Of a stretch of 23,966 bases of DNA, positions 19,472 through 23,938 are shown piece after piece. The position numbers were made by a program, and so were the translations under genes. The stretch comes from a virus. Below the pieces are notes generated by a model. It was not told where the DNA came from. It did not search any database and saw only the letters and a program-made list of their open reading frames with translations. The stretch covers positions 1 to 23,966 of the IMG/VR virus record IMGVR_UViG_3300046535_000487; one strand, written 5' to 3'. Numbering within the stretch: the stretch's first letter is position 1; the number at the start of each line of letters is the position of its first letter.

Positions 19472-20173
19472 ATGGATTTTTATCCACGAATTAGTACCGG
19501 CGCAGACGCCGCGCCCGTTAATTATTTCGAATATCTCGCCTCAAAAGCCTGGCGAGATCGCCGAAATGCGCGCCTGCGCGCGGCCGGCTGGAAGTGTACC
19601 GAGTGCGGATCCCGGCGCAACCTGCAAGTGCATCACAAAACGTACGAGCGCCTCGGCCGAGAATGGGATCAGGATCTCGCCGTCCTCTGCGTCGCCTGTC
19701 ACGAGGCCAAGCACCAGACCGAGGCGCCGCACGAATACGTGCGTCATTATCTGCGCCTGGCGCGCGAGGTGCTCGAGACCGGCGAGCAGTACCAGACGCT
19801 CTCGGATTTTACGGAGGCGCTCAAAACCCGCTGCGCGCGCGAAAAGCTCTACTACAACAGCGAAAAACTCGCGCGGGCTATCTCACTCGTCTGGAAGGAC
19901 TATAAAACTGCGCCGCCGGCCGTTGTGACGTTCGTCGTCGATACATGGGAACGGCCGCCGAGCCGCGGCGAGGCCCGGCAAATTCTCCGCAACGTCGGCG
20001 CCCTCGAGGCGGCCGAGCGTATGCCGACGATGCCGCCGGCGGATTACCTGATCACGACGCAACGGGACGCCGACCGCCAGAAGGCGCTCGAAATGGTCGC
20101 GCGCGAGATCCAGGCGTCGATCGACCGCTGCGCCGAGCTCGAGACCGCCGAGCCCGAGAAGGCCGAATCGTGA
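19472..20173 (+). CDS. HNH endonuclease-domain protein
   Basis: A 233-residue protein. The N-terminal HNH module covers about residues 20-82: WRDRRNARLRAAGWKCTECG (C42, C45), LQVHHKTYERLGRE (H54/H55) and DLAVLCVACHEAKHQ (C73, C76, H77). This is the Cys4-type HNH fold that nicks or cuts DNA. The rest (90-233) is helical with no recognised domain, ending in a charged coil. The frame is open upstream back to about 19340, across the hexamer array, so a fusion to the DUF1376-like gene by a -1 shift is conceivable. The ATG at 19472 lacks a clear ribosome-binding site. The stop overlaps the next gene as GTGA. Confidence 0.8.
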   Translation: MDFYPRISTGADAAPVNYFEYLASKAWRDRRNARLRAAGWKCTECGSRRNLQVHHKTYERLGREWDQDLAVLCVACHEAKHQTEAPHEYVRHYLRLAREVLETGEQYQTLSDFTEALKTRCAREKLYYNSEKLARAISLVWKDYKTAPPAVVTFVVDTWERPPSRGEARQILRNVGALEAAERMPTMPPADYLITTQRDADRQKALEMVAREIQASIDRCAELETAEPEKAES

Positions 20174-20922: not shown

Positions 20923-21177
20923 ATGGACATTCAACAGAAGCTGGACGAGATCCTCGCCGACAACCCCGACCTGCAAAAGTACATCGCGGCCTGGTATTAC
21001 GTGCCCGACGGCGCGACGCCGCCGCGCGACGTCACGCACCTGATCCGCGTCACGTCGACGACGACGGCCGAGCGACACGCCTCGATCGGCATTGTGGCGA
21101 CGCCGGCCGCGGGCGCGATCCTCGAGGCGATCCTCGCCCTGATCGCCACACAACCGATCCCGCCCGAACCGAAGTGA
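20923..21177 (+). CDS. Hypothetical protein
   Basis: An 84-residue protein with a strong ribosome-binding site (GAAGGAGAT, 20910-20918) before ATG 20923. It is acidic and helical early (IQQKLDEILADNPDLQKYIAAWYYVP), with strands THLIRVTSTTTAERHASIGIV and a final helix. No known motif. Its strong ribosome-binding site marks the start of a new translation unit leading into the lipoprotein. Confidence 0.62.
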   Translation: MDIQQKLDEILADNPDLQKYIAAWYYVPDGATPPRDVTHLIRVTSTTTAERHASIGIVATPAAGAILEAILALIATQPIPPEPK

Positions 21178-21188
21178 GGGGTAACGTA

Positions 21189-21647
<459 letters not shown>

Positions 21648-21654
21648 CGCCGCT

Positions 21655-21720
21655 CGCGAGGCGGGCCTCTGGGACGCGGGATCGCCGCGGATACGGCGAG
21701 CCGTCGGGCCCGGCCTCGCG
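21655..21720. repeat. Inverted repeat just before the methyltransferase gene
   Basis: CGCGAGGCGGGCC (21655-21667) pairs with GGCCCGGCCTCGCG (21707-21720) with a single bulged base. Its right arm ends 8 bases before GTG 21729. It could be a regulatory hairpin, or the operator of an autoregulated methyltransferase. In so GC-rich a sequence such stems arise easily. Confidence 0.45.
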
Positions 21721-21728
21721 ACGGCGCC

Positions 21729-22700
21729 GTGAGCGCCTACTACAACGAGCATGATCCGTTTGCGGCGGCCTGGTTGCGCGAGTTGATCGCAGAAGGATTG
21801 ATCGCCGAGGGCGAGGTTGATGACCGAGACATACAAACCGTCACGCCTGCCGATGTTCGAGGATTCGATCAATGTCACTGGTTCGCCGGGATCGGCGGCT
21901 GGTCCTACGCGCTTCGACTCGCCGGCTGGCCCGACGATCGCGCCGTCTGGACCGGGAGTTGTCCCTGTCAGCCCTTCTCGGCGGCCGGCGCCCGTGCTGG
22001 CGGGCATGATCCGCGCGACCTTTGGCCTGCCTGGTTCGAGCTCATTCGCGAGTGCCGACCTGCAACAATCGTTGGCGAACAAGTTGCGGCGGCGGTTGCC
22101 CATTCCTGGATCGATCGCGTGGCGAATGACCTGGAAGGACGTGGATACGCCGTCGGGGCGGCGTGTTTGCCGGCTGCAAGCGTCGGCGCCTTCCACCTCC
22201 GCAACCGGCTCTGGTTCGTGGCAGAGTCCAACGAGCGGGGACGCGAAGGGGCGCGGCTACACCTATCCGAACGGGGACCACAGCAAGCCGTTTCTGGCCC
22301 TGCCGGGACAAGCGCAGATGACGAGTTGGGCGACACCGACCGTTCGGGATCACAAGGACGGGACGGCCGAGAGTTGTCAGAATGTGCCGATCAATGCGCT
22401 CCTTGGACGGCAGGCGACACTCAGCGAATGGCCGACACCGAACGCGATGGCTGGAGGACAGACGAGCCGCAGCGGGAAGCGGAAGGGCGAACCGCTGATG
22501 GGCGGATTAGTCCGTGGTCTGACGTTCTCTGGCTCCCCTGCCGAGACGGCAAAACCCGGCCAACTGAACCCGGCCTTCTCCCTTTGGCTCATGGGGTACC
22601 CGGCCGCGTGGGCACGTTGCGCGGCGCGGGTAATGCGATCGTCCCGCAAGTCGCGGCCGAATTTATCCGCGCGTACGCCGAGGCCCGAGGCCTGACGTGA
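21729..22700 (+). CDS. DNA (cytosine-5) methyltransferase, Dcm family
   Basis: A 323-residue C5-methyltransferase with the family motifs in order. S-adenosylmethionine-binding motif I is WFAGIGGWSYAL (51-62). Catalytic motif IV is GSCPCQPFSAAG (76-87, nucleophile C80). Motif VI is GEQV (116-119, Gln in place of the common Asn). HLRNRLWFVA (156-165) is motif VIII, and GNAIVPQVAAEF (301-312) is motif X. Residues about 170-270 are the variable target-recognition region and are overlapped by another reading frame. The GTG start lacks an obvious ribosome-binding site. It may protect phage DNA from restriction; no cognate restriction enzyme was recognised. The stop overlaps the HNH gene (TGATG). 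Confidence 0.92.
   Translation: MSAYYNEHDPFAAAWLRELIAEGLIAEGEVDDRDIQTVTPADVRGFDQCHWFAGIGGWSYALRLAGWPDDRAVWTGSCPCQPFSAAGARAGGHDPRDLWPAWFELIRECRPATIVGEQVAAAVAHSWIDRVANDLEGRGYAVGAACLPAASVGAFHLRNRLWFVAESNERGREGARLHLSERGPQQAVSGPAGTSADDELGDTDRSGSQGRDGRELSECADQCAPWTAGDTQRMADTERDGWRTDEPQREAEGRTADGRISPWSDVLWLPCRDGKTRPTEPGLLPLAHGVPGRVGTLRGAGNAIVPQVAAEFIRAYAEARGLT
21820..22695 (+). CDS. Second protein encoded in another frame across the methyltransferase gene
   Basis: A 291-residue open frame from ATG 21820, in the +1 frame relative to the methyltransferase and contained almost completely within it. It has recognisable family-like segments: ADLQQSLANKLRRRLPIPGS, AWRMTWKDVDTPSGRRVCRL, SWATPTVRDHKDGTA, LSEWPTPNAMAGG, then FSGSPAETAKPGQLNPAFSL and WLMGYPAAWARC with a basic SSRKSRPN tail. 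I recall this order from phage proteins encoded beside Dcm-type methyltransferases, not overlapping them. Function is unknown. The methyltransferase frame shows family motifs too, so both appear constrained. An alternative is a by-product of GC-rich codon bias, but the motif order argues against it. Confidence 0.7.
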   Translation: MTETYKPSRLPMFEDSINVTGSPGSAAGPTRFDSPAGPTIAPSGPGVVPVSPSRRPAPVLAGMIRATFGLPGSSSFASADLQQSLANKLRRRLPIPGSIAWRMTWKDVDTPSGRRVCRLQASAPSTSATGSGSWQSPTSGDAKGRGYTYPNGDHSKPFLALPGQAQMTSWATPTVRDHKDGTAESCQNVPINALLGRQATLSEWPTPNAMAGGQTSRSGKRKGEPLMGGLVRGLTFSGSPAETAKPGQLNPAFSLWLMGYPAAWARCAARVMRSSRKSRPNLSARTPRPEA

Positions 22701-22993
22701 TGCCGATGCGCCCGCCGACCGGCCGCCGCCTCGAGGCGCGTCACGAGCGCGACGCCAACCGCCGCAACGCCGCGATCCGCCGGCTCTACTCGACGCGCCG
22801 GTGGGAGCTCCTCCGCGCGCGCGTCCTCGTCGAGGCGGCGTATACCTGCGCGTCGTGCCGGCGCGTCGTGCTCGACCTCGACGTCGATCACGTCGTCAAG
22901 CACGACGGCCACCTCGCGCGGTTCTGGGATCGCGGCAACCTCCAGGCCTTGTGTCGCACCTGTCACCACTTCAAAACCATGAAGGGAGAATAA
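22700..22993 (+). CDS. HNH endonuclease (packaging-associated type)
   Basis: A 97-residue protein; ATG 22700 overlaps the methyltransferase stop (TGATG), and a GTG at 22697 is an alternative. An N-terminal Arg-rich helix (RRNAAIRRLYSTRRWELLRA) precedes C50-x2-C53, DVDHVVKHDG (D63, H64), N80 and a closing CRTCHHFK (C85, C88, H89). This is the complete HNH motif of small phage nucleases that lie next to the terminase genes and help cut concatemers at cos sites. If the genome is circular, terminase follows this gene within about 1 kb. Confidence 0.9.
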   Translation: MPMRPPTGRRLEARHERDANRRNAAIRRLYSTRRWELLRARVLVEAAYTCASCRRVVLDLDVDHVVKHDGHLARFWDRGNLQALCRTCHHFKTMKGE

Positions 22994-22997
22994 ACAC

Positions 22998-23318
22998 ATG
23001 AGCAAACACACCCGCGAACAACTACACGAGGCCCTCGAGGAGGCGGCCCTCGCCGGCGCAAAAGAGATCAAGGAATTTCTCGGCACGTATCGCGGCAAGG
23101 ATCCCGATCGTCTGCGTCGTGTGCAGATCGCGATCGGCGCCGTCGGCGGCTATACCCGTTGGCGCGCGAGTCAGAACAACATGATCTCGATGATGCTGAT
23201 CGCGGCCAGGCAAGCCGGGATCGGCCCACAGCAAACGCTCGATATCGCCAAAACCGCCGGCCTCCTACCTGAGAGCACCGAGCCCGCCGACGTGCTACCA
23301 CTCAAGGCGGCGAAGTGA
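22998..23318 (+). CDS. Hypothetical protein between HNH and zinc-knuckle genes
   Basis: A 106-residue, largely helical protein with ribosome-binding GAAGGGAGAA upstream. The N-terminus is KHTREQLHEALEEAALAGAK, the middle LRRVQIAIGAVGGYTRWRAS, and later GIGPQQTLDIAKTAGLLP. It is the right size and place for a terminase small subunit, but I see no clear helix-turn-helix, so that is only a possibility. The stop overlaps the next gene as GTGA. Confidence 0.65.
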   Translation: MSKHTREQLHEALEEAALAGAKEIKEFLGTYRGKDPDRLRRVQIAIGAVGGYTRWRASQNNMISMMLIAARQAGIGPQQTLDIAKTAGLLPESTEPADVLPLKAAK

Positions 23319-23938
23319 GGCCGACGTTCTACTGCGAATCGTGCGCGGCGCCCTTCTGGCGGCGAAAGAATCACAAGGACGCGCGCCGCTTCTGCTCAAA
23401 ACGCTGCGCTGGTACGTGGCACCGAGCGCGCACCGCAGCACGGGTACAGGCCGAGCGTACGCAGCGGGAGATCGATCGCGCCTTGCTACAAGCCGCGCGC
23501 GAGACCGCGCGACTACTGCGGCGATGCCCGTGCGGCGCGTCGCTCGACCGCCGATCCGCTGGCGGCCGGTTCTGTCGGGCATGTGTCGCCGCACGTTTGC
23601 GCGCCTCGAATATCCGCCAACAAAAAGCGGCGCGCGACTATGGGCCGCTCCATTGTTGCCCCAATTGTGGACGGCAATTTCAGGGATACGAGGGCGCCGT
23701 GTTCTGCTCGTCGCTCTGCTCAAAACGCCTGCACCGTAAAAGGTACCCGACGCTCGCACACATACCGCTCGAGGAACGGAACCACTTGGCCGAGATGATC
23801 GCGCTTGTCCGCGCTGCTCGTCGCAAGATCGGCCGAGATCCAAACCGCGCCGATCGTGAGATCCCCCGAGACCCTAAACCCGCCGACGTCGTCGACGTAA
23901 GTGACTCAAACGAAAGCGGTTACAGTGGGGGACCATAA
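23315..23938 (+). CDS. Triple zinc-knuckle protein
   Basis: A 207-residue protein from GTG 23315. Three four-Cys sites are evident: C7/C10/C27/C31; C71/C73/C87/C90; and C115/C118/C131/C135. The first and third share an FCSxxC ending (RFCSKRC, VFCSSLC), while the second has CPCG. Between sites 1 and 2 is a charged helix (about 36-70), and the C-terminus is basic then acidic. Repeated FCS-type knuckles suggest binding to DNA or protein. In order it precedes the terminase if the window is circular, but no direct packaging role is known to me. Confidence 0.78.
   Translation: MRPTFYCESCAAPFWRRKNHKDARRFCSKRCAGTWHRARTAARVQAERTQREIDRALLQAARETARLLRRCPCGASLDRRSAGGRFCRACVAARLRASNIRQQKAARDYGPLHCCPNCGRQFQGYEGAVFCSSLCSKRLHRKRYPTLAHIPLEERNHLAEMIALVRAARRKIGRDPNRADREIPRDPKPADVVDVSDSNESGYSGGP

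Follow-up and report, generated by a model that had tools for sequence, protein, structure and literature searches.

Probable two-subunit cytosine methyltransferases with the beta subunit encoded in a frame nested inside the alpha subunit gene

Our analysis indicates that a virus record very probably encodes a two-subunit C5 cytosine methyltransferase resembling M.EcoHK31I, in which a putative beta subunit, carrying target recognition and motif IX, is nested in the gene for the alpha subunit. The window, by which we mean the whole 23,966-base stretch of the record that was analyzed, also has genes for a terminase, a portal and a major head protein. Its GC content is 67%, and long open reading frames (ORFs) that are not read are common in it. 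The features of the overlapping pair, with SD standing for Shine-Dalgarno, are as follows.

21729..22700, plus strand: alpha gene, outer C5 methyltransferase frame with motifs I-VIII and X; GTG start, 323 aa.
21806..21822, plus strand: likely beta start, an SD-like GAGGGCGAGG followed by TTG and ATG 21820; based on the sequence and on family-wide enrichment of a nested ATG and SD.
21820..22695, plus strand: beta gene, nested +1 frame with the putative target-recognition region and motif IX; ATG start, 291 aa.
22054..22185, plus strand: predicted helix and beta-hairpin of beta (LQQSLANKL...GSIAWRMTWKDVDTPSGRRVCRLQAS), overlapping alpha motifs VI-VII; confident in the beta model (residues 79-122), both frames constrained.
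22233..22523, plus strand: putative target-recognition region in the nested frame (WQSP, WATPTVRDHKDG and WPTPNAM units), where the alpha linker is predicted to be unordered; codon-position flip in 40/40 pairs.
22564..22611, plus strand: putative motif IX, read in the nested frame as LNPAFSLWLMGYPAAW; in relatives the nested protein is 0.97 identical here and the alpha third position changes at 0.017; the beta model has two helices at this place.
22629..22649, plus strand: GNAIVPQ, motif X as read in the alpha frame; in relatives it is under constraint in that frame alone.

The two same-strand frames, sharing about 876 bases, are present as had been claimed in an earlier reading of the window from its sequence alone (the sequence-only reading). 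The beta ORF extends from the ATG at 21820, or an alternative TTG at 21817, to the stop codon at 22693-22695 (876 nt including the stop), and lies wholly inside alpha in the +1 frame. The 291-residue product with the segments WATPTVRDHKDG, WPTPNAM and LNPAFSLWLMGYP was borne out, these segments being read in +1 and FAGIGG, PCQP, EQV, LRNR and GNAIVPQ in frame 0. The methyltransferase frame had been credited with all C5 methyltransferase motifs, and this held for the five just named and failed for motif IX, of which we found no convincing copy in frame 0; what frame 0 has at the place of the nested motif IX resembles that motif of M.HhaI weakly and without significance. The caution of the sequence-only reading about shadow frames in GC-rich DNA was well placed. 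When the window was shuffled with the methyltransferase protein and its codon set held fixed, the 297-codon open run of beta was just mildly unusual (null 169 ± 52 codons, P = 0.027, window alone), and the case for beta therefore rests on its relatives.

Several other features were observed near the pair. A 399-aa antisense ORF (20997-22196, minus strand) crosses the start of the methyltransferase gene and looks like an ordinary GC-rich shadow ORF. A small protein at 21174-21647, possibly a lipoprotein, combines an N-terminus resembling a signal sequence with a cysteine (AASCGD) and a repeat of proline and threonine, and had no PHROG match. Directly after alpha is an HNH endonuclease gene (22697-22993), and as its GTG at 22697 overlaps the alpha stop codon (22698-22700), translation of these genes may be coupled. 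More HNH-like genes occur at 19472-20173 and 23315-23938.

The alpha protein matched PF00145 at residues 74-173 (7.8e-15) and phrog_363 over nearly its full length (4.8e-76). Its catalytic motifs I, IV, VI and VIII are in order and are near-invariant in relatives, as expected of a C5 cytosine methyltransferase. The chain is without motif IX and the target-recognition region, both of which are in the nested frame, and alpha alone is an incomplete member of the PF00145 C5 methyltransferases. Its AlphaFold model contains a catalytic domain and the motif X helices, with residues 178-260 mostly of low confidence. Foldseek matched this model to M.HaeIII and M.HhaI over ~190 columns, and by both analyses the model is without an ordered small domain.

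The beta protein matched phrog_1008 (4.7e-22), a PHROG that is labelled “DNA methyltransferase”. Searches of beta against Pfam and NCBIfam returned no matches, with the betas of both subfamilies described below giving nothing of note; its profile matched none of the PDB sequences, and a Foldseek search of its model against the PDB produced nothing useful. The AlphaFold model of beta was poor overall (pLDDT 61), a result that would be compatible with a subunit dependent on its partner; only the helix with its hairpin (79-122) and the motif IX helices were confident.

One-piece phage C5 methyltransferases (L013 among them) have, in a single frame, a catalytic domain, a PTP-rich region, LNPxFxEWMMGxP and GNxVVPQ. 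The beta profile aligned to their recognition and motif IX region (columns 238-406, Prob 96, E 2.3e-9), the PTP-rich recognition region aligning to beta, and the alpha profile aligned to their catalytic region (columns 27-211, E 2.4e-21); the alpha and beta profiles did not match each other. Homologues of the nested frame outside overlapping methyltransferase genes, on which the sequence-only reading had placed weight, do exist, as these in-frame regions of one-piece enzymes. That reading had also linked segments of the nested protein to separate phage genes beside methyltransferases; the protein is most likely no separate accessory gene product but the half that alpha lacks of one enzyme. The segment LNPxxSRWLMGYP is the probable counterpart of motif IX of M.HhaI, an assignment that rests on profile placement and side-by-side reading, the direct matches of the segment to solved structures being non-significant.

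At 23 other loci, found with a pattern fixing part of it, the nested frame also contains the beta segment WATPTVRDHKDG...VPINALLGRQ. The number of W-x-T-P units in the nested protein of relatives varies from 0 to 5 (e.g., L014, L039 and L088), so this region appears to lengthen and shorten through repeats, and every such change has to leave both frames open.

On the evidence of sequence comparison the nested frame is a real gene, and its relatives are decisive in this. A homologous +1 frame was present at all 80 viral loci picked by alpha peptides alone; nearly all of them keep it open for most of the gene's length, and in L059 the alpha frame itself is interrupted. Stops in the +1 frame of these loci numbered 276, against 439 expected, and were mostly outside the nested ORF, compared with 1001 against 930 in the other frame. 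Loci were also picked by nested peptides, in viral contigs and in the genomes of bacteria from many phyla. In 160 of 160 of these the nested frame was at +1 inside an alpha gene, and stand-alone copies of beta were absent from that set; such locus counts overstate the independent lineages, because several loci are nearly identical and some of the viral contigs derive from the same genomes. The nested frame is open also in relatives of 43-56% GC. Stop-containing nested frames in close relatives, which would have spoken against the sequence-only reading, were looked for, and the overlap was stop-free in close pairs. The proposal of a genuine second family-like protein in the +1 frame is supported, and across the family the open frame is far beyond chance.

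The same arrangement was observed in a second Dcm subfamily (L292-L336), in which LNPxWVEWLMGFPxGWT is in +1 inside the methyltransferase ORF. Across 20 of its loci, one of them at 43% GC, nested-frame stops numbered 0 against 76 expected. The beta profile of this subfamily matched that of the window family (E 8.3e-28) and the one-piece methyltransferases (2.7e-13). Two loci of the same fetched set (L297 and L337) have the parts in one frame, and since they occur among nested relatives, fused and nested forms seem to interconvert. In seven related phage methyltransferases (L274, L278-L281, L283 and L287) the first ORF stops shortly past the catalytic motifs, and the rest of the match is in a different frame, with no long overlap between the two; motif IX in L278-L280 is at +1 past the end of the first ORF; these may represent an M.AquI-like split, a frameshift or sequencing error. 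On a Klebsiella aerogenes plasmid (L338, LR134256.1, 2492-3503) an alpha relative is probably a broken copy, as its match is in three pieces and its gene is annotated as short uncharacterised ORFs. This broken copy was all that a plasmid search for an M.EaeI-like restriction system recovered.

To follow which frame is selected along the gene, substitutions were counted by codon position in 52 pairs of relatives, using closer pairs only and a frame-neutral nucleotide alignment; this evidence is from relatives, the window's own relatives being too distant and its recognition region not alignable. Outside the overlap, substitutions per site at codon positions 1, 2 and 3 followed an ordinary coding pattern (0.126, 0.080 and 0.326). 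From motif VIII to the C-terminal C.DGK block, the order was reversed (0.273, 0.149 and 0.119), and position 1 exceeded position 3 in 40/40 scorable pairs. Identity over that stretch was 0.81 for beta, compared with 0.66 for alpha and 0.66 for the third, unread frame. Where the target-recognition region is expected, alpha is thus the shadow and beta the selected protein. The double constraint that the sequence-only reading had expected in the variable region was not found in relatives: the nested frame is constrained there, and the methyltransferase frame evolves like an unread frame.

The remainder of the gene differs between segments in these relatives. Over motifs I-IV only alpha is constrained, with the nested frame stop-free, and over motifs VI-VIII both frames are constrained, constraint passing from alpha to the nested frame about where motif VIII ends. 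The most constrained nested segment is LNPxxSRWLMGxP, with a nested identity of 0.97 and an alpha third-position change of 0.017. The first ~70 residues of beta look unconstrained, and the exact start of the active beta is uncertain for that reason. An earlier version of the codon-position test, with frame-0 protein alignments, had produced no clear flip (36 pairs vs 50), which we attribute to gap placement dictated by the wrong frame and to the greater distance between the pairs used; the nucleotide-alignment version was chosen after that result was known.

The nested start is itself under selection. An ATG in the nested frame, 5-30 codons before FAGIGG, was found in 147 of 153 loci, compared with 109 ± 5 when synonymous codons were shuffled, and further downstream these loci had no excess of nested ATGs. 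In a separate count the figures were 90 of 93 loci and 59 ± 4. An SD-like site precedes the nested ATG in 71% of cases, compared with 29% in shuffles, and is often made by the rare arginine codon AGG at the position in brackets of alpha VDE[R]S (24% there vs 7% elsewhere). From this selection on start codon and SD site, we infer that beta is made as a separate chain.

Several other explanations of these observations were considered. The nested frame as an untranslated shadow of high GC and of conservation of the methyltransferase protein is the least probable of them, to the point that we regard it as almost excluded. The GC content of 67%, the long unread ORFs of the window and the modest P of 0.027 for its own open run would all suit such a shadow, but a shadow does not account for the codon-position flip in 40/40 pairs, for a frame that is open at 43-56% GC with its ATG and SD selected, or for homology to in-frame regions of one-piece methyltransferases. 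A programmed +1 frameshift after motif VIII, producing one fused chain and no separate beta, is highly improbable. Such a frameshift would fit the handover of constraint to the nested frame close to where motif VIII ends, and also the existence of one-piece homologues, but motifs VI-VIII are constrained in both frames at once, which a single shifted product could not use, motif X is in alpha and further along than the nested motif IX, and the nested start codons and SD sites are selected.

The two remaining alternatives accept a translated beta and differ in what it does. It is unlikely that both proteins form the enzyme with the target-recognition domain in alpha and only motif IX supplied by beta, an arrangement in keeping with a review that assigns the predicted recognition domain of M.EcoHK31I to its larger polypeptide (PMC3404938). 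In the stretch from motif VIII to motif IX, alpha behaves like the unread frame (0.66 vs 0.66), compared with 0.81 for nested; alpha is also predicted to be unordered there, and the PTP-rich recognition region of one-piece enzymes aligns to beta. That beta is an independent protein (e.g., a regulator or anti-restriction factor) merely overlapping the methyltransferase gene is very improbable indeed: its want of a Pfam, NCBIfam or PDB match would agree with this, but it was never found apart from the methyltransferase (160/160), holds exactly the motif that alpha is missing, and aligns to whole methyltransferases at the part that has target recognition and motif IX.

We hypothesize that the two-subunit enzyme is formed as follows. 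Translation of the outer frame would produce alpha, with a catalytic domain of motifs I-VIII and a motif X helix joined by a little-constrained linker. Ribosomes starting a second time inside the alpha gene, at ATG 21820 behind its SD-like site, would produce beta, consisting of the helix and hairpin, the target-recognition region and motif IX. Association of the subunits would complete the C5 methyltransferase, with beta providing the small DNA-recognising domain; the association, the methylation activity and the existence of a target sequence are all predicted from sequence. The role of the enzyme in the phage is probably to protect its DNA from host restriction.

It seems reasonably likely, in addition, that nested two-subunit C5 methyltransferases form a large and mostly unannotated class, extending over two or more Dcm subfamilies and carried by the phages and prophages of bacteria from many phyla, in which all target recognition is in the nested subunit and the outer variable region is a free linker. 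If so, these genes would be among the most widespread conserved same-strand overlaps in bacteria, and specificity could be exchanged via beta. Gene callers often keep one frame, so one half of each such enzyme goes unannotated, and alpha cloned by itself may seem inactive for want of beta. The position of beta indicates where target specificity should be sought, a point relevant to predicting how phages methylate DNA and escape restriction. The pair is also a natural case in which the frame encoding the selected protein changes along one gene, and is useful for testing methods that detect overlapping genes.

Such pairs have been annotated before, in whole or in part. Escherichia phage K1G (L011) has overlapping ORFs in the same place, ORF31 (C-specific methylase) and ORF30 (Mte8-like protein), both annotated and the nested one a homologue of the window's beta (PHROG 1008), although the annotation does not state that the pair may form one enzyme. 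Annotation of the pair is inconsistent, with the nested gene only in Salmonella phage W5_chr3, both in K1G and the outer only in epsilon15; inconsistently annotated loci include L010 (PP996006.1, 36061-36990) and L011. Our literature search on nested or overlapping cytosine methyltransferase genes found no paper describing the arrangement in the window.

Among characterized and annotated enzymes, the one-piece phage C5 methyltransferases (L297, L337, L258-L276 and Mycobacterium phage Chevrolet gp76) share the catalytic part, recognition and motif IX segments with the pair, but have all parts in one frame and one chain. The small subunit of M.EcoHK31I is a protein of 176 aa encoded in another frame inside the large one; the enzyme has the target YGGCCR, and M.EaeI is its relative. 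The beta of the window is longer, at 291 aa, and has a long unconserved N-terminal part. M.AquI is likewise a C5 methyltransferase in two polypeptides, but its small subunit has motifs IX and X (PMC3404938), whereas motif X of the window is in alpha and is constrained there only. In M.EcoHK31I the larger of two polypeptides has motifs I-VIII and X and the smaller has motif IX (PMC3404938), as in the window, where the large subunit has motifs I-VIII and X without IX and motif IX (LNPAFSLWLMGYP) is in the nested ORF. The predicted recognition domain of M.EcoHK31I is in the larger subunit (PMC3404938), whereas here the constraint, as seen in relatives, is on the nested subunit. Overall, the window most likely belongs to the M.EcoHK31I kind, a likeness drawn from motif division and architecture rather than from sequence comparison, and what is new is the breadth of the arrangement across phages and the evidence for target recognition in beta.
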